A stretch of 32,810 nucleotides of DNA from the NCBI RefSeq assembly GCF_027706725.1, contig NZ_JAQFWQ010000080.1:1-32810 (forward strand), written 5' to 3'. The stretch comes from Nocardiopsis endophytica (lineage in GTDB: Bacteria; Actinomycetota; Actinomycetes; Streptosporangiales; Streptosporangiaceae). Below the pieces are notes generated by a model. It was not told the DNA's origin and made no database searches. It saw nothing but the letters and a program-made list of their open reading frames with translations. The translations under genes and the position numbers were made by a program. Below are positions 1 through 32,810 of the stretch, piece after piece; the stretch's first letter is position 1; each line of letters opens with the position of its first letter.

Positions 1-225
1 GCGGAGGGGCCCGGCGCCCGGCAGGCAGGGCCGAGAACCACCCCGCTGTCGCCGTCGCTGCCATCTCCGGCGACCACGCACACGCCTCACGGTCGACAGC
101 GCTGCGGCGTGGGCCGCCGACCTTCGTCGTCGCTGCCCTTGCGACCTTGCACCCCGGCGGCCCGCCGCCCGGCCAGGGCCCTTGAGCGGGGTACCTGATC
201 AGCCGTCCGCCCGGACTACTAGCGA
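1..225 (+). repeat. Dispersed repeat core, copy 0 (cut by window edge)
   Basis: This is the first of five copies of a roughly 220-bp intergenic repeat seen by eye in the window. Landmarks in order are GGCAGGCAG (about 21), GAACCACC, TCGCCGTCGCTGCC, GACCACGCACACGC (about 72-85), CGACAGCGCTGC, a GGCCGCCGACCTTCGTCG block, and GAGCGGGGTACC near 185. The same landmarks recur in the same order in copy 1, about 217 bp downstream, so the two stand in tandem. The copy starts before the window. No reading frame is kept between copies because of indels, so I treat it as non-coding. Confidence 0.75.
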
Positions 226-480
226 CCTGCCGGACGGCAGGCAGCGCCCGGGAACCGCCTGGCTGTCGCCGTCGCCGCCCAACACGGTGACCACGCACAC
301 GCGCCGTGCCCGACAGCGCTGCCGCAAGGGCCGGCGGCCTTCGTCGCTGCCCCTGCGACCTTGCACTCCGGTGGCCTGCCGCTCGGCTGGTGTCCGTGAG
401 CGGGGTATCACCCCAGCCGTCCGGCCCCCCGGACCGCGAGGGGCCCACCGCCCGGCCGGGAGTGGTGACGGGGGCTGCCT
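226..480 (+). repeat. Dispersed repeat core, copy 1, with start of a third unit
   Basis: This is the second tandem copy. It has CGGACGGCAGGCAG at about 231, GGGAACCGCC near 250, CACGGTGACCACGCACACGC at 283-302, CGACAGCGCTGC after it, and GTGAGCGGGGTATC near 400. After the CAGCCGTCCGG end, a CCGGACCGCGAGGGG stretch at about 437-452 matches the left edge of copy 3, so a third unit seems to begin and break off. Copies 0 and 1 lie just downstream of the smc stop codon and lack the long palindrome attached to copies 2, 3 and 4. Positions 481-536 hold nothing else recognisable. Confidence 0.75.
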
Positions 481-12132: not shown

Positions 12133-12167
12133 CCCCTCGGCGTTGTCCTCTGGAAAAGCGCCCCTGA
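12133..12167. repeat. Short dispersed repeat, copy A
   Basis: This segment aligns with 32361-32393 at about 29 of 33 positions, with two single-base gaps. The shared parts include GTCCTC and AAGCGCCC followed by TGA. It lies just past the rpmB terminator. No coding sense is apparent. The remainder, 12168-12249, shows nothing recognisable. Confidence 0.6.
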
Positions 12168-12249
12168 GAGCGGACCGGTAGCGTCGTTCCCCCCGGGGTC
12201 AACGCCGGGCACACCCGCCTGTCCGTGCGCATTCCTGCAGGGGGCGGGC

Positions 12250-12882
12250 TTACAGGGAGCAGGGGTTCCCGTTGAAGGTGCAGCTGCTGGGCGCCTGTGC
12301 GGTGCCCTCGGCGGTGAAGGTGACGTCGACCGACTCCCCCGGCGCCAGGCCGCCGTCCGAGGCGGGCGCCCGGGCCACCACGCCGTCGCCGGTGGCCTCC
12401 CAGTCCACGTCCCAGGCGGAGGTGACCGTCGCCCCGTCGAACCCCAGCACCAGCTCCCAGCCCTCCAGGGCGGTCGAGCCGGTGTTGGTGAGGGTGACCC
12501 TGCCGGTGAAGGCCGTGGCGGAGGACTCGACGGTGGTGTAGCTCAGGTTCGCCGGGGCGCCTGCGGCGTCCTCCTCGGCGCGGGCCTCCCCGCCCTCGGA
12601 GTCCTGGGTGCTCGGCCCGGCGGAGGGGCCTGCGGGGGTGGTGCCGTGCTCGACGGGCGGCTCGCTGAACCGGAGGTAGATCTGGGTGGTGCTGTAGCCG
12701 AAGAGCACGAGCCCGACGGTGACCCCGGAGATCAGCAGCACGCTCAGCAGCCGGGGCGGGCGGACCCTCTTGGGCACGGTGCTGCCCAGCATCAGGCCCA
12801 CGGTCCTCAGCGGGCCGGAGTCCTCGGGCTCGGAGCGGTGCGCACCGCGCCGGCCGCCGCCGGACCCGCTTCTGCGCCCCAT
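12250..12882 (-). CDS. Membrane-anchored protein with CBM2-like domain
   Basis: This 210-aa protein has a Gly/Arg-rich cytoplasmic N-terminus (about 1-43) and one membrane segment (about 45-64, LLSVLLISGVTVGLVLFGYS). A Pro/Ser/Glu-rich external linker runs to about 107, followed by a C-terminal beta-sandwich resembling the bacterial cellulose-binding CBM2 family. Supporting motifs are VTLTNTG, the GWEL Trp, SAWDVDWEATGDGV, GGLAPGESVDVTF, and a terminal CTFNGNPC cysteine pair. The usual Trp before the GxLxPG turn is absent (APASDGG), so classic cellulose binding is uncertain. No catalytic domain is attached. The start ATG has GGAAGG upstream. It lies downstream of thiL, separated by 160 bp. 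Confidence 0.82.
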   Translation of the reverse strand: MGRRSGSGGGRRGAHRSEPEDSGPLRTVGLMLGSTVPKRVRPPRLLSVLLISGVTVGLVLFGYSTTQIYLRFSEPPVEHGTTPAGPSAGPSTQDSEGGEARAEEDAAGAPANLSYTTVESSATAFTGRVTLTNTGSTALEGWELVLGFDGATVTSAWDVDWEATGDGVVARAPASDGGLAPGESVDVTFTAEGTAQAPSSCTFNGNPCSL

Positions 12883-19636: not shown

Positions 19637-21483
19637 GCACCGCCGACGTCTCCCCCGTGGCCGCCGAGGGCGCCGACGCCCCCGGCCGCGGCCGCGACCC
19701 GCTGGTGCGGATGGTCCTGCTGGCCTGGCCCCGGGGCAGCCGGTTCGCGCTCGGGGTCCTGCTCGGCTCGGTGGCCACCGGGTCGGCGGTGGCACTGCTG
19801 GGCATCGCCGCCTGGATGCTCGCCAAGGCGGCCGAGCACCCGCCGATCACCGCGCTGAGCGTGGCGATCGTGGCCACCCGCGCCCTGGGCGTCACCCGCG
19901 GGGTGGCGCGGTACCTGGAGCGGCTGGTCACCCACGACGCCGCCTTCCGCACCCTGGCCGACGTGCGGGTGAAGGTCTACGAGCGACTGGCCCGCACCGA
20001 ACCCATCCGCCGCTTCCGCTCCGGCGACCTGGTCTCCCGCCTGGTCAGCGACACCGAGTCCACCCAGGACCTGCTCCTGCGGGGGCTCACGCCGCCGCTG
20101 ATCGCGGTGGTGGCCGGCGGGGTGACCACGGCCGTGTGCACGGCGCTGCTGGTCCCCGGCGGGCTGGTGCTGGCCGCCGGGCTGCTCCTCACCGGGCTGG
20201 CGGTGCCGCTGGTCGCCGCGCGGCTCGGCCGGGCGCCCGGCGAGCGCCAGGCGGAGGCGCGCGGACGCCTGTCCACCTCCCTCGTCGACGCCCTGCACGG
20301 CGCCCCCGACCTGGTCGCCTACGGGGCCATGGACCGGGCGGTGCACCGGGTGGAGGAGGCCGACGCCGAGCTGACCCGTCTGGCCCGCCGGGACGCGGGG
20401 CTGCTGGGGTTCGGTGCCGGGGCGACCGCGCTGGTCACCGGCCTGACGGTGTGGGCGTCGCTGCTGCTGGGGGTGGCGGCGGTCGACGACGGGTCGCTGC
20501 ACCCGGTGCCGCTGGCGGTGCTGGTGCTGACCACGCTGGCCGCGTTCGAGATCGTGCAGCCGCTGCCCGCGGTGGCGGCGCGGCTGGGGGCGCTGCGGGC
20601 CGGGGGTGCACGCCTGTTCGACGTGCTGGACACCCCGGCCATGGTGGAGCCGCCCGCCGAACCGGCCGCCCTGCCCGAGCCGCCCCCGGCCGACCTGCGG
20701 GTGCGGGGGCTGAAGGTGCGGTACGGCCCACAGGAGCCGTGGGCGCTGCGCGGCATCGACCTGGAGGTGCCCGCGGGGGCGAAGGTGGCGGTGCTGGGGC
20801 CCAGCGGCGCGGGGAAGAGCACGCTGGCGGAGGTGCTGCTGCGCTTCCGGGACCCCGACGCGGGGGGCGTGGAGCTCGGCGGCGGCGACCTGGTCGGCTA
20901 CGACCGGGACGACGCACGGCGGGCGATCGGGGGCGTGCCGCAGGACCCGCACGTGTTCGCCTCCACCCTGCGGGAGAACCTACGGCTGGCCCTGCCAGAG
21001 ACCGGCCCCGCCGGGAACGGGGACGCCGACAGCAGCGGGGACACCGACAACGGCCAACACACCGATGGCGGCGACGAGCGGCTGTGGGAGGCCTTGGAGC
21101 GGGCGCGCCTGGCCGACGAGGTCCGGGCGATGCCGCACGGGCTCGACACCGAGGTGGGAGTGCACGGCACCCGGCTGAGCGGCGGCATGCGCAGCCGCCT
21201 GGCAATGGCCCGGGCGGTGCTGGCGGCGCCGAGGATCCTGGTCCTGGACGAGCCGACGGCGCACCTGGACCCCGACACCCGGGACGCGGTCATGGCCGAC
21301 GTCCTGGACGCGGCGGACGCCGAAGGGTTCTCGACCCTGCTGATCACCCACGACCTGGCGGGCCTGGAGCGGATGGACCGCATCTACGTGCTCTCCGAGG
21401 GCCGCGTCCTCCAGGAGGGCACCCCCCATGAGCTGGCCGAGCAGGATGGCTGGTACCGCGACGCCCTGCGCCTGGGGAGCTGA
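19633..21483 (+). CDS. cydC: ABC exporter subunit CydC
   Basis: This 616-aa half-transporter pairs with CydD. The membrane domain covers about residues 35-290, including ARYLERLVTHDAAFR. The ATPase has Walker A GPSGAGKST (389-397), a Q-loop in GVPQDPHVFAST, Walker B ILVLDEPTAHLD and switch His in LLITHDLAG. The ABC signature reads LSGGMRSR, with Met in place of the common Gln. An Asp/Gly/Asn-rich insertion (about 457-482) lies between the Q-loop and the signature. The start overlaps the cydD stop (ATGA), indicating translational coupling. It is the last gene of the operon; downstream is the repeat array. Confidence 0.95.
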   Translation: MSTADVSPVAAEGADAPGRGRDPLVRMVLLAWPRGSRFALGVLLGSVATGSAVALLGIAAWMLAKAAEHPPITALSVAIVATRALGVTRGVARYLERLVTHDAAFRTLADVRVKVYERLARTEPIRRFRSGDLVSRLVSDTESTQDLLLRGLTPPLIAVVAGGVTTAVCTALLVPGGLVLAAGLLLTGLAVPLVAARLGRAPGERQAEARGRLSTSLVDALHGAPDLVAYGAMDRAVHRVEEADAELTRLARRDAGLLGFGAGATALVTGLTVWASLLLGVAAVDDGSLHPVPLAVLVLTTLAAFEIVQPLPAVAARLGALRAGGARLFDVLDTPAMVEPPAEPAALPEPPPADLRVRGLKVRYGPQEPWALRGIDLEVPAGAKVAVLGPSGAGKSTLAEVLLRFRDPDAGGVELGGGDLVGYDRDDARRAIGGVPQDPHVFASTLRENLRLALPETGPAGNGDADSSGDTDNGQHTDGGDERLWEALERARLADEVRAMPHGLDTEVGVHGTRLSGGMRSRLAMARAVLAAPRILVLDEPTAHLDPDTRDAVMADVLDAADAEGFSTLLITHDLAGLERMDRIYVLSEGRVLQEGTPHELAEQDGWYRDALRLGS

Positions 21484-21493
21484 CCCGGTCTCA

Positions 21494-21809
21494 TCTCAAG
21501 GGCCCCGACCAGGCGGCAGGCCGATGGGACGCCAAGGCAGAGGTCGGCAGCCCATGCTGCAGCGCTGCCGACCGCCGGGCGTGTGCGTGGTCACCGTGAT
21601 GGGCGGCGACGGAGTGAGCGGGGCGGTTCCCCGACCCCACCAGCCGGGCGGCAGACTCCTCGCGGTCCGGGCGACGGCGCGATCAGGTGGGCGTGTGGTC
21701 GCCCGCGCTCGTGGCGGCCGTCAGGCCGGTGTGCCCCTGCCCGGCGATGATCTCGACAAGGGTGCTGTCAAAACCGGCGGAATGACAGCACTTCCGCCGA
21801 GATCATCGC
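21494..21809 (-). repeat. Composite repeat unit, copy 2 (core + linker + palindrome A)
   Basis: Reversed relative to copies 0, 1 and 3. The core has GGCGGCAGGCC near 21514, GCAGCGCTGCCGAC near 21560, GCGTGTGCGTGGTCACCGTG at 21579-21598 and GGGGCGGTTCCCC near 21619. A linker (about 21693-21743) carrying TCGCCCGCGCTCGTGGCGGC leads into palindrome A (21744-21809). The same core-linker-palindrome order is seen in copies 3 and 4. Confidence 0.75.
21744..21809. repeat. Palindrome A
   Basis: The outer arms GCGATGATCTCG and CGAGATCATCGC are a perfect 12-bp match, and the inner arms GTGCTGTCA and TGACAGCAC a perfect 9-bp match. They are separated by unpaired 6-nt segments, with loop AAACCGGCGGAA. Palindrome D at the window end shares these arms. 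Confidence 0.85.
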
Positions 21810-21836
21810 GGGGGTGGCCGCTCGGCGCCCGCCCTC

Positions 21837-21898
21837 GTTGATCTCGGGGAAGTCGGGGTTAAACCGGACACGATAAGCCCGACTTCCCCGAGATCAAC
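21837..21898. repeat. Palindrome B
   Basis: Perfect 21-bp arms (21837-21857 with 21878-21898) surround a 20-nt loop. The outer part of each arm is GTTGATCTCG / CGAGATCAAC, as in palindrome C. It sits between palindromes A and C with no repeat core of its own and forms the approximate centre of the array. Confidence 0.9.
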
Positions 21899-21924
21899 AA
21901 CAGCACGCCCCAGCGCCGCCGCTC

Positions 21925-21994
21925 CCTCGTTGATCTCGGGGAAAACGACGCTACCGGGGCGGTTTTAGCGTCGTTTTTCCCGAGATCAACGAGG
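21925..21994. repeat. Palindrome C
   Basis: The 29-bp arms (21925-21953 with 21966-21994) match except for one G/T wobble, around a 12-nt loop. The outer sequence CCTCGTTGATCTCGGG resembles palindrome B. The inner parts, AAAACGACGCTA and its mate, are unique to this copy. Confidence 0.9.
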
Positions 21995-22275
21995 AGGGGC
22001 ACCGGGCAGACGGCCGCCACGGGCGCGGGCGAGCACCCGTCCTCCTCGCCGCGCCGCCTACCCGGACCGCGAGGGGCCGGACGGACGGCAGGACCGGCCG
22101 GGGAACCGCCCGCTTCTCGCCGTCGCTGCCATCTACGGTGGCCGTGCACACGCGCCGCGCTCGACAGCGCTGCGGTAAGGGCCGCTGGCCTGTTCTCGTT
22201 GGCGCCCTTATCGGTGTGCTCCGTCGGCCTGCCGCTCGACTGGGGCCCGTGAGTGGGGTACCCCCCAGCCGCCTG
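21925..22275 (+). repeat. Composite repeat unit, copy 3 (palindrome C + linker + core)
   Basis: Plus-oriented unit. Palindrome C is followed by a linker (about 21995-22042) whose reverse complement, containing TCGCCCGCGCCCGTGGCGGC, matches the linkers of copies 2 and 4. The core follows: CGGACCGCGAGGGGCC near 22059, GACGGCAGG near 22084, GGGGAACCGCC near 22100, TACGGTGGCCGTGCACACGC at 22134-22153, CGACAGCGCTGC near 22162, and GAGTGGGGTACC near 22251. Confidence 0.75.
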
Positions 22276-22570
22276 CCCACCCGCACCGCGAACGGCCGAG
22301 GCTCGAGCCGTGCCGGCAGCGTCGTTCATCGCGGGATCAACGACGGCGGCGCTGGAGCCGCTCGTACGCTTCCGGTTCCGGCCACAGTGTGACGCGTCCC
22401 TCTCCGCTCGCGTCCTGGCTGGTCGTCGGCGCGCACCGACGCCGCGGCCCCTTTCCGGCGGCCCGGCGGGTCCGGGGGCGCCCGTGCCGTTCCCCCTGTA
22501 CCGCCGCGGCCGCGGGTACTCTGCCCTTCGGAACCCGGGCGACAGGACGTTCGAGGGGCGGTGGCCGACA
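22276..22570. other. Gap between repeat array and SGNH gene
   Basis: There is no gene with a usable start. A small hairpin, CGTCGTT (22320-22326) with AACGACG (22339-22345), may be a remnant of a GATCAACGA-type palindrome. The SGNH hydrolase promoter should lie in the right part, but I see no clear hexamers. Confidence 0.3.
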
Positions 22571-26665: not shown

Positions 26666-26716
26666 CACCCTGATCGCACGCCGGGCCGCCCAGTGCGGCC
26701 CGGCTCCCGAACACAC

Positions 26717-26806
26717 CCACCGGCGCGGGGTGCCGCGGAGCCTCCTCCCACCGCGGCTGAGAACACACCCGTCGAACCTGCACTAGCTCGCACTAGCGAA
26801 GGGACG
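26717..26806 (+). promoter_or_regulatory. TPP riboswitch (THI element) of thiD
   Basis: The conserved aptamer landmarks occur in order: GCGGGGTGCC (26725-26734), GGCTGAGA (about 26756-26763), ACACCC, GAACCTGC (26774-26781), a CTAG...CTAG stem, and GCGAAGGGA (26796-26804). The final AAGGGA is also the thiD ribosome binding site, 6 nt before the start codon. Ligand binding could therefore block translation directly, with no separate expression platform visible. Confidence 0.92.
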
Positions 26807-26809
26807 CCC

Positions 26810-27613
26810 ATGAGCTCCTTCAACATCCTGTCCATCGCCGGGACGGACCCCAGCGGCGGCGCGGGGATCCAGGCCGACCTCAAGGCCTTCTCCGCCCTCG
26901 GGGGCTACGGCATGAGCGTAGTGACGGCCCTGGTCGCGCAGACCACCACCGGGGTCGCCGAGGTGCACCGTGTGCCCCCGGAGTTCATCACCCGCCAGCT
27001 CGACGTGCTGCTGGACGACGTGCGCACCGACGCGGTCAAGATCGGCATGCTGGCCGACACCGGGGTGATCGACGCGGTGGCGGGGGCGCTCGACGCGCAC
27101 CGGCCGCCGAACGTGGTGCTCGACCCGGTCATGGTGGCCAAGAGCGGCGACCGGCTGCTGGCCGCCGACGCCATCGGGGCGGTCCGCGCCCGCCTGCTGC
27201 CGCGCGCCGACCTGATCACCCCCAACCTGCCCGAGGCCGCCGAGCTGCTCGGGGTGAAGGAGGCGGCCGACACCGCCGAGATGGAGCACCAGGCGCGCGG
27301 CCTGCTCGACCTGGGCGCCCGCCGGGTGCTGATCAAGGGCGGGCACCTGGACACCGCCGAGAGCACCGACCTGCTGGTGGAGCCGGGGCGCCCGGCCGTG
27401 CCGTTCACCGCGCCCCGGGTGGCCACGAAGAACACCCACGGCACCGGCTGCACCCTGTCGTCGGCCATCGCCGCGCTCCTGCCGCAGCGGGACGGCTGCG
27501 CCGCGGCGGTGCGGGAGGCCAAGGAGTACCTGACCGAGGCGCTGCGCCGTGCCGACGACCTGGAGGTCGGCGCGGGCAAGGGGCCGGTGCACCACTTCCA
27601 CGCCTGGTGGTGA
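26810..27613 (+). CDS. thiD: Hydroxymethylpyrimidine/phosphomethylpyrimidine kinase
   Basis: This 267-aa ribokinase-fold enzyme phosphorylates HMP and HMP-phosphate to HMP-pyrophosphate, the pyrimidine half of thiamine. It shows SIAGTDPSGGAGIQADL at the N-terminus, LDPVMVAKSGDRLL near 105-118, and the anion-hole/catalytic NTHGTGCTLSSA near 210-220. The frame opens further upstream through the riboswitch, but ATG at 26810 gives the family start (MSSFNILSIAGTDPSG). Regulation is by the TPP riboswitch. A bidirectional hairpin lies downstream, before the convergent symporter gene. Confidence 0.97.
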   Translation: MSSFNILSIAGTDPSGGAGIQADLKAFSALGGYGMSVVTALVAQTTTGVAEVHRVPPEFITRQLDVLLDDVRTDAVKIGMLADTGVIDAVAGALDAHRPPNVVLDPVMVAKSGDRLLAADAIGAVRARLLPRADLITPNLPEAAELLGVKEAADTAEMEHQARGLLDLGARRVLIKGGHLDTAESTDLLVEPGRPAVPFTAPRVATKNTHGTGCTLSSAIAALLPQRDGCAAAVREAKEYLTEALRRADDLEVGAGKGPVHHFHAWW

Positions 27614-32477: not shown

Positions 32478-32810
32478 GGCTGGTACCCCACTCCAGGACT
32501 CCGGCCGGGCGGCGGGCTGGCGGGGTGCGGCGTGATCGGCGGCGACGAGGACAGGTCGGCGGCCCTCGCGGCAGCGCTGTCGGGCGCGGCGCGTGTGCAC
32601 GGTCACCGTGATGGGCAGCGACGGCCAGAGCCGGGCGGTTCCCGGGCCTTGCTTACCGTCCGGCTGGCCTCTCGTGGTCCGGGTGGGCGGCGCGGCCGAG
32701 TGGGTGCGTGGTCGCCCGCGTTCGTGGCGGCCGCCGCCCCGGTGCACCCCCTCCTGGCGATGATCTCGACAAAGGTGCTGTCATTCCGGCGGTTTTGACA
32801 GCACTCTTGT
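32478..32810 (-). repeat. Composite repeat unit, copy 4 (core + linker + palindrome D, cut by window edge)
   Basis: This is a reversed unit like copy 2. It runs from GGTACCCCACTCC (near 32481) through GGCGGCCCTCGCGGCAGCGC, GCGTGTGCACGGTCACCGTG at 32591-32610, GGCGGTTCCCGGGCC and CGTCCGGCTGGCC to the linker (TCGCCCGCGTTCGTGGCGGC, near 32712) and palindrome D. The linker is nearly identical to that of copy 2. The end lies outside the window. Confidence 0.75.
32757..32810. repeat. Palindrome D (partial)
   Basis: The left arm GCGATGATCTCG is identical to palindrome A, then ACAAAG, GTGCTGTCA, loop TTCCGGCGGTTT, TGACAGCAC and TCTTGT. The right outer arm should follow beyond the window. The 6-nt segments pair here, unlike in A. 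Confidence 0.8.

Follow-up and report, generated by a model that had tools for sequence, protein, structure and literature searches.

BIMEs and REPs are the closest known system to the repeat described here. Outside genes and in high copy number, they combine palindromes with spacers in a mosaic; they favour gene 3′ ends and convergent neighbours and carry complementary changes in their stems, and the available parts of four accounts describe their RAYT association, their GTAG/CGTC tags and a preference for convergent and same-strand genes (PMC2817692, PMC3733652, PMC3116915, PMC12306157). Our repeat is alike in layout, placement and stem changes. It differs in having 58-bp palindromes with identical ends, where REPs measure 20-40 bp and bear a GTAG or CGTC tag, and in its outward tandem 217-bp cores with a linker, its lack of an adjoining RAYT and its actinobacterial host. 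REPINs, in the accessible part of PMC3116915, likewise have a variable hairpin interior between two conserved ends in inverted orientation and are non-autonomous. Unlike them, the palindromes here have conserved ends of 8-12 bp and an interior that is itself a stem of near-fixed length, and no linked RAYT was found for the family. In Streptomyces clavuligerus, U-lacking and bidirectional termini, with stable hairpins devoid of a T-run at convergent 3′ ends, are also similar, but the portion of that study available to us describes no family of repeats whose ends are invariant and whose length is fixed (PMC8269248). MITEs too are short, non-coding, multi-copy inverted repeats; terminal inverted repeats at fixed ends are seen here in the 58-bp palindrome, whereas the outer copies of the composite are cut variably, its ends are not fixed and no target duplication was seen. 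Finally, integron attC sites have conserved ends and an interior conserved in structure but variable in sequence, as our palindromes do, yet here no cassette array is seen and the palindromes lie between convergent host genes.

Whether extragenic palindromes owe their spread to transposition or to gene conversion is an old question; a 1988 review by Higgins and colleagues reportedly asks in its title whether theirs is evolution by gene conversion. The question becomes directly testable here, through species pairs that share a site but differ in the inner arms and, for the larger composite, through near-empty sites. Below, we describe a lineage-wide family with ends fixed in sequence and an interior fixed in structure only, placed where the transcripts of two genes meet. 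With moderate confidence, we read the whole as a BIME-like non-autonomous DNA mosaic built round bidirectional terminator-type palindromes and spread by recombination or copying.

Architecture of the composite repeat

The window analysed is the entire contig C80 (positions 1-32,810) of G000, a draft genome of Nocardiopsis endophytica (7.26 Mb, 211 contigs), and both ends of the contig lie within the repeat. An initial annotation, made from the letters of the window, had described five cores, three of them with a linker leading to a long palindrome, as one unit. Profile matches recover all five cores (Table 1), and three do carry the linker on their palindrome side; these are the third, fourth and fifth cores, however, and the numbering "2, 3 and 4" holds only if counted from zero. 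The one long palindrome of the middle composite resolves into three, A, B and C. The first two cores have lost their palindrome side at the contig start. The middle composite lies after cydD-cydC, with the outer end of its first core 7 nt past the cydC stop codon (21483), and before a same-strand GDSL-lipase-type gene, while the cores at the contig ends follow the smc stop codon by 127 nt and that of a LysR-type regulator gene by 134 nt. As annotated, no transposase adjoins the repeat in the window, and no gene is called within the composite. In none of the five relatives searched (G001-G005) are the left and right flanks of the middle composite adjacent; those of the 21483-22484 junction are found there on separate contigs or at a great distance from each other (5.75 and 2.70 Mb in G004). 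This junction possibly reflects a rearrangement in the lineage or a false join made at the repeat in the draft assembly.

Table 1. Coordinates of repeat features in the window and of PF01797 genes or fragments elsewhere
Feature	Position	Strand	Basis
Core copy 1	4-196	+	Profile match; proximal end cut by contig start
Core copy 2	211-410	+	Profile match and direct repeat; tandem with copy 1
Isolated palindrome, subfamily C	12143-12203	.	Profile match and gene context
Core copy 3	21490-21670	-	Profile match
Linker of core copy 3	21697-21722	+	24/26 consensus bases
Palindrome A, 58 bp, TGATCTCG...CGAGATCA	21748-21805	.	
Palindrome B, 58 bp	21839-21896	.	
Palindrome C, 58 bp	21931-21988	.	
Linker of core copy 4	22009-22034	-	22/26 consensus bases
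Core copy 4	22062-22262	+	Profile match
Core copy 5	32481-32681	-	Profile match
Linker of core copy 5	32710-32735	+	26/26 consensus bases
Palindrome A, cut by contig end	32761-32810	.	
PF01797 gene or fragment	L061 1441-1914 (G000 contig C7)		
PF01797 genes or fragments	L082, L083, L084, L369, L370, L371		

Across G000, the repeat gives 227 blast matches, the best outside the window with an E value of 1.7e-113, which refutes the absence of further copies that the annotation had named as fatal to its reading. Among the matches listed, it occupies at least 40 places (a hand count that includes the middle site of the window). Many of these places sit at contig ends, and the repeat thus helps explain the breaks in the draft genome. 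Similarity is far above chance; the mean pairwise identity among 57 copies of the ~217-bp core is 73%. Core copies are clear in G000, G001, G002 and G005; G003 and G004, of the same genus, hold single weak matches. No core was matched in G025, the only genome of a second genus searched for it, nor in four palindrome-bearing Nocardiopsis stretches (three of N. suaedae, one of N. halophila), and phage and plasmid collections returned no composite match at E 1e-5.

The architecture was read from the window and 40 further stretches of G000, of which 20 were picked for the repeat and 20 were tiles of contigs C2, C4 and C6. Cores and palindromes are combined in 27 clusters with 87 cores in total, and all 87 point outward from the palindrome cluster, one to five per side at a spacing of ~215-220 bp. 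The linker is present at 31 of the 42 cores whose palindrome side is free of other cores for 60 bp and at none of the 37 with a core there. Where a cluster holds at least two palindromes (n = 21), their order, read by hand, is A-D-B-C or its mirror in 4 and partially so in 12; the remaining 5 (L086, L093, L095, L096, L097) are off this order. Core arrays have a fixed inner edge and a ragged outer one: the far end is cut in 23/43 outermost against 5/43 inner cores, and the near end in 5/43 against 4/43, contig-edge copies excluded. No gene is called inside any composite examined, using an in-house caller with 76-85% coverage of the tiles. The repeat is thus high-copy, extragenic and mosaic.

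Two further modules occur in these mosaics. Palindrome D, whose GCATCCTGCGTCGT ends are unlike those of A, B and C, is also found alone (L114 19149-19208, L115 2519-2581) and therefore seems to form a palindrome family of its own that the mosaic has taken up. Module E, which measures ~250 bp and has long inverted ends (TACCAGAACGGGATTCGG), is confined to four composites (L086, L088, L093, L101). Insertion of the composite into an older palindrome was also considered and is not claimed, since most outer edges score no higher than shuffles; split halves are suggestive on both sides of L091 (scores 12 and 14, shuffles at most 11), on one side only of L087 and of L099 and, within the window, to the right of 22262 and to the left of 32481.

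A palindrome family at gene 3′ ends

Palindromes A, B and C are members of a more widespread family of 58 bp with the same invariant ends and with inner arms that are variable yet complementary. The consensus of the ends, with both orientations pooled, is CGWTGATCTCGR; it contains no GTAG/CGTC tag, and the flank consensus contains no T-run. Counted with the exact pattern TGATCTCG-N(36-60)-CGAGATCA, the family has 367 members in G000, 123, 67, 33, 15 and 13 in five other genomes of the genus, and 151 and 108 in two genomes of the second genus. The reversed pattern, used as a control, has no match in these eight genomes and one match in one other of the 297 genomes of the taxonomic family, of which 83 contain any palindrome match and only these eight at least 10. 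Three further genera hold 3, 3 and 8 members near 58 bp, and a scan of named genomes found at least four Nocardiopsis matches among 80 listed (N. suaedae three, N. halophila one), all of 58 bp. Members of 58 bp in several genera carry other inner arms. In a length scan from 44 to 75 bp, 58 bp was found in 31/31 palindromes of G000 and 20/21 of G025, the exception lying inside a gene; G004 is looser, with 12/23 at 58 bp and the others at 54-59 bp.

In 124 palindromes with exact ends, inner pairs 9-23 are Watson-Crick in 72-98% and exceed the shuffle at all 15 positions (shuffle 30-61%; 91% at position 17), although the copies are related and the shuffle is no strict test. The pooled central six pairs exceed it by at most a few percent, and members in G004 and some in G025 are palindromic to the centre. 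Within single genomes, pairs 12 and 20 in G000 and pairs 11, 15 and 23 in G025 are not above the shuffle. Fixed ends combined with paired variable arms indicate constraint on sequence at the ends and mainly on structure in the interior. Nine low-E Rfam matches are to microRNA families, far below the gathering score, and were taken as chance hits of plain hairpins. Along contig C1 of G025, the matches listed (to 1.64 Mb) fall at 5 places up to 0.82 Mb and at 30 between 0.82 and 1.44 Mb; palindrome density along this chromosome may be uneven. Among the papers listed by searches on the end sequences, on Nocardiopsis or actinobacterial palindromes or repeats, on terminators and on REP gene conversion, none concerns the family by its title, and the main text of a Nocardiopsis comparison contains neither 'palindrom' nor 'intergenic' (PMC3634020). 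Judged by these title-level searches, the family appears undescribed.

Isolated palindromes lie at gene ends. Sequence from G025 (620 kb), G102 (580 kb) and G000 (400 kb) contains 63 of them; 57 could be placed between called genes, 39 convergent, 18 same-strand and none divergent, against a background of 215 convergent and 218 divergent among 1212 gene pairs (convergent excess, P 4e-18). The median distance from stop codon to palindrome is 24.5 nt, and for 6 of the 96 distances the gene stops at a TGA that belongs to the palindrome itself; the isolated palindrome of the window lies 47 nt past the stop codon of a minus-strand gene called at 12250-12882. Median best 64-nt hairpin energies are -37.3 in convergent gaps with the family (n = 26), -40.0 in convergent gaps without it (n = 60) and -28.2 in divergent gaps (n = 64). 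Convergent gaps without the family thus hold equally stable hairpins, and we conclude that the palindromes replace ordinary terminator hairpins.

From sequence and position, we infer that the palindromes probably stop transcription from both sides, as U-lacking and bidirectional termini do in the available account of S. clavuligerus (PMC8269248). A/B/C palindromes at gene 3′ ends would act as bidirectional U-tract-free terminators or as 3′-end insulators, with transcripts arriving from either side folding the same ~26-bp stem. A stable hairpin shortly past stop codons, with a preference for convergent genes, is found for isolated palindromes and not for composites: the 22 core-bearing clusters with both neighbours called include 5 convergent and 4 divergent gaps, with no convergent preference, and termination therefore does not explain the core.

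Turnover between species

Comparison of orthologous sites, as the annotation had proposed, shows that the composite is gained or lost en bloc between related species, in keeping with the single architectural unit that it had postulated. At three of six composite sites, the blocks in G000 and G002 measure 1450 vs 24, 1257 vs 9 and 1462 vs 13 bp, leaving near-empty sites whose flanks are alignable and 83-97% identical; the other three measure 707 vs 115, 1005 vs 200 and 442 vs 403 bp. No target duplication was seen by eye at the empty sites, which diverged flanks blur. Composites as points of rearrangement were also considered and set aside. Among 12 composite junctions, 10 have their two flanks side by side in one or more of G002-G005 and 2 (L094, L086) in none of these; among seven control junctions, the flanks stay together in one or more relatives in 6, and one flank of the seventh has no match. 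These adjacency counts were read by hand from tables and may include contig breaks.

Palindromes turn over as well. Among 32 G025 sites scanned (one of which lies in a gene), 21 are syntenic in G102, 4 with a palindrome by script and 17 without, and 11 are not syntenic; among 23 G102 sites, G025 has a palindrome at 5 and none at 6, and 12 are not syntenic. Where a palindrome is present in one species and absent from the other, the gap is mostly 36-110 bp shorter in the latter. One more shared site was found by eye (offset 248403; the G102 palindrome is longer), which brings the shared G025/G102 sites to six, with flanks 81-93% identical. Their inner arms differ: of 15 positions, 6, 5, 6 and 7 match on the G025 side (four sites) and 6, 6, 6, 6 and 11 on the G102 side (five sites), giving five inner-arm swaps and one partial swap (offset 334633, where the flanks are nearly identical).

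The fetched stretches of G000 and G002 contain five sites with a palindrome in both (one found by eye), of the same subfamily at 2 and of different subfamilies at 3. Two of the latter three bracket a replaced 1.2-kb segment and may therefore represent one event. Here, on G000 contig C4 (28399-29710; L113 8399-9710), two inverted palindromes frame a segment with a 372-aa minus-strand ORF. The 1.2 kb enclosed by this pair (C4 28399/29653) is 59-81% identical to G002, against 95-97% on both sides, and C4 28399-29710 accordingly looks, by alignment, like a replaced segment with its edges at the palindromes. A general role of palindromes as recombination borders was considered and rejected: pooled over both directions of one species pair, synteny or identity breaks occur at 13/52 palindrome junctions vs 324/975 other junctions, and at 60/139 convergent junctions without a palindrome.

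Accounts of spread and function

The BIME-like mosaic that we prefer is centred on a palindrome cluster of A, D, B and C, sometimes with E, and continues on each side with a linker and then one to five tandem outward cores of ~217 bp. Palindromes and composites would most likely spread within the genome as DNA, by ectopic recombination, gene conversion or template switching, a mechanism that we infer; the invariant outer arms would seed exchange of the palindromes, and the longer homology of linker and core that of the composites.

The strongest competing account, appreciably less probable, is that the palindromes are miniature elements mobilised in trans. A transposase or recombinase from elsewhere, perhaps the IS200-type PF01797 protein, would read the CGWTGATCTCGR ends or the hairpin and move 64-bp palindromes, with composites built incidentally. 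The invariant ends, near-fixed length and free inner arms favour it, as do the palindromes present or absent at orthologous sites and the 58-bp members with other inner arms in several genera. The annotation had offered a non-autonomous transposable element; its classical form is weakened by the variable outer ends of the arrays and by the lack of any target duplication seen, and it is the version with a trans-acting transposase that survives, itself facing both observations, the second blurred by divergence at the empty sites.

PF01797 bears on this account in both directions. It is matched in 6 of 11 genomes, namely G000, G005, G025 (two matches) and G102, with fragments in G001 and G002, and is unmatched in G003, G004, G069, G083 and G014. 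Palindrome counts are 367, 151, 123, 108, 67 and 13 with it and 33, 15, 9, 4 and 4 without it. The PF01797-bearing genomes include all five richest in palindromes (4 of 462 rank orders are as extreme, by hand and uncorrected for relatedness), which speaks for help in trans and counts against the mosaic that we prefer. All positives come from two genera, however, and shared ancestry can also explain the association. Palindromes occur despite the lack of a PF01797 match in G003 (15), G004 (33) and, in small numbers, G069, G083 and G014. The fragments in G001 and G002 span only 40 and 30 profile positions, in genomes with 13 and 123 palindromes, and none of the seven PF01797 loci (3.1-3.4 kb each) contains a family palindrome. 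The PF01797 proteins are 49-74% identical to that of G000, a 158-aa protein that looks like an IS200-type transposase.

More doubtful is an interchangeable terminator cassette. A putative dedicated enzyme would read the 8-12-bp ends of near-fixed-length palindromes and replace or insert the inner hairpin at gene 3′ ends, yielding genome-specific inner-arm families, and the outward core arrays would come from the same reaction repeated from the palindrome centre. Termination needs neither invariant ends nor a near-fixed length; both count against the mosaic that we prefer and hint that some protein recognises the ends.

A role of the composite in chromosome organisation, in which its outward arrays would bind gyrase, a nucleoid protein or condensin, seems improbable. 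The regular ~215-220 bp spacing and strict polarity would suit such a role, and gyrase and IHF bind BIMEs according to the available part of PMC2817692, but the core is present in G003 and G004 only as single weak matches and composites are gained or lost at single sites.

A strict RAYT/REP system, also suggested by the annotation, in which the palindromes would be REPs and the composite a BIME moved by a RAYT, is highly unlikely. The palindrome/spacer mosaic at gene 3′ ends recalls BIMEs and REPs as far as the available accounts describe them, but the GTAG/CGTC tag is absent, the palindromes are symmetric and of 58 bp instead of 20-40 bp, five palindrome-bearing genomes lack PF01797, no PF01797 gene was found flanked by palindromes, and the G000 protein looks to be of IS200 type. 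By tag and by linked gene, membership in REP/RAYT is not supported.

The annotation's structured RNA fares no better, and it is hard to credit that the core specifies a structured RNA or a small RNA terminated at the palindromes: 39 of 206 columns are invariant (40 of 53 full-length copies aligned), but the consensus fold of 24 pairs over these columns reaches -17.4 kcal/mol with a two-sided change in only 1 pair, and the window composites have no Rfam match at the gathering score. By this covariation test, conservation of the core lies in its DNA sequence and not in an RNA fold. The one element of the window above the gathering score lies apart from the repeat; it is a TPP riboswitch aptamer (26716-26821, + strand) at the start of a gene called at 26810-27613.
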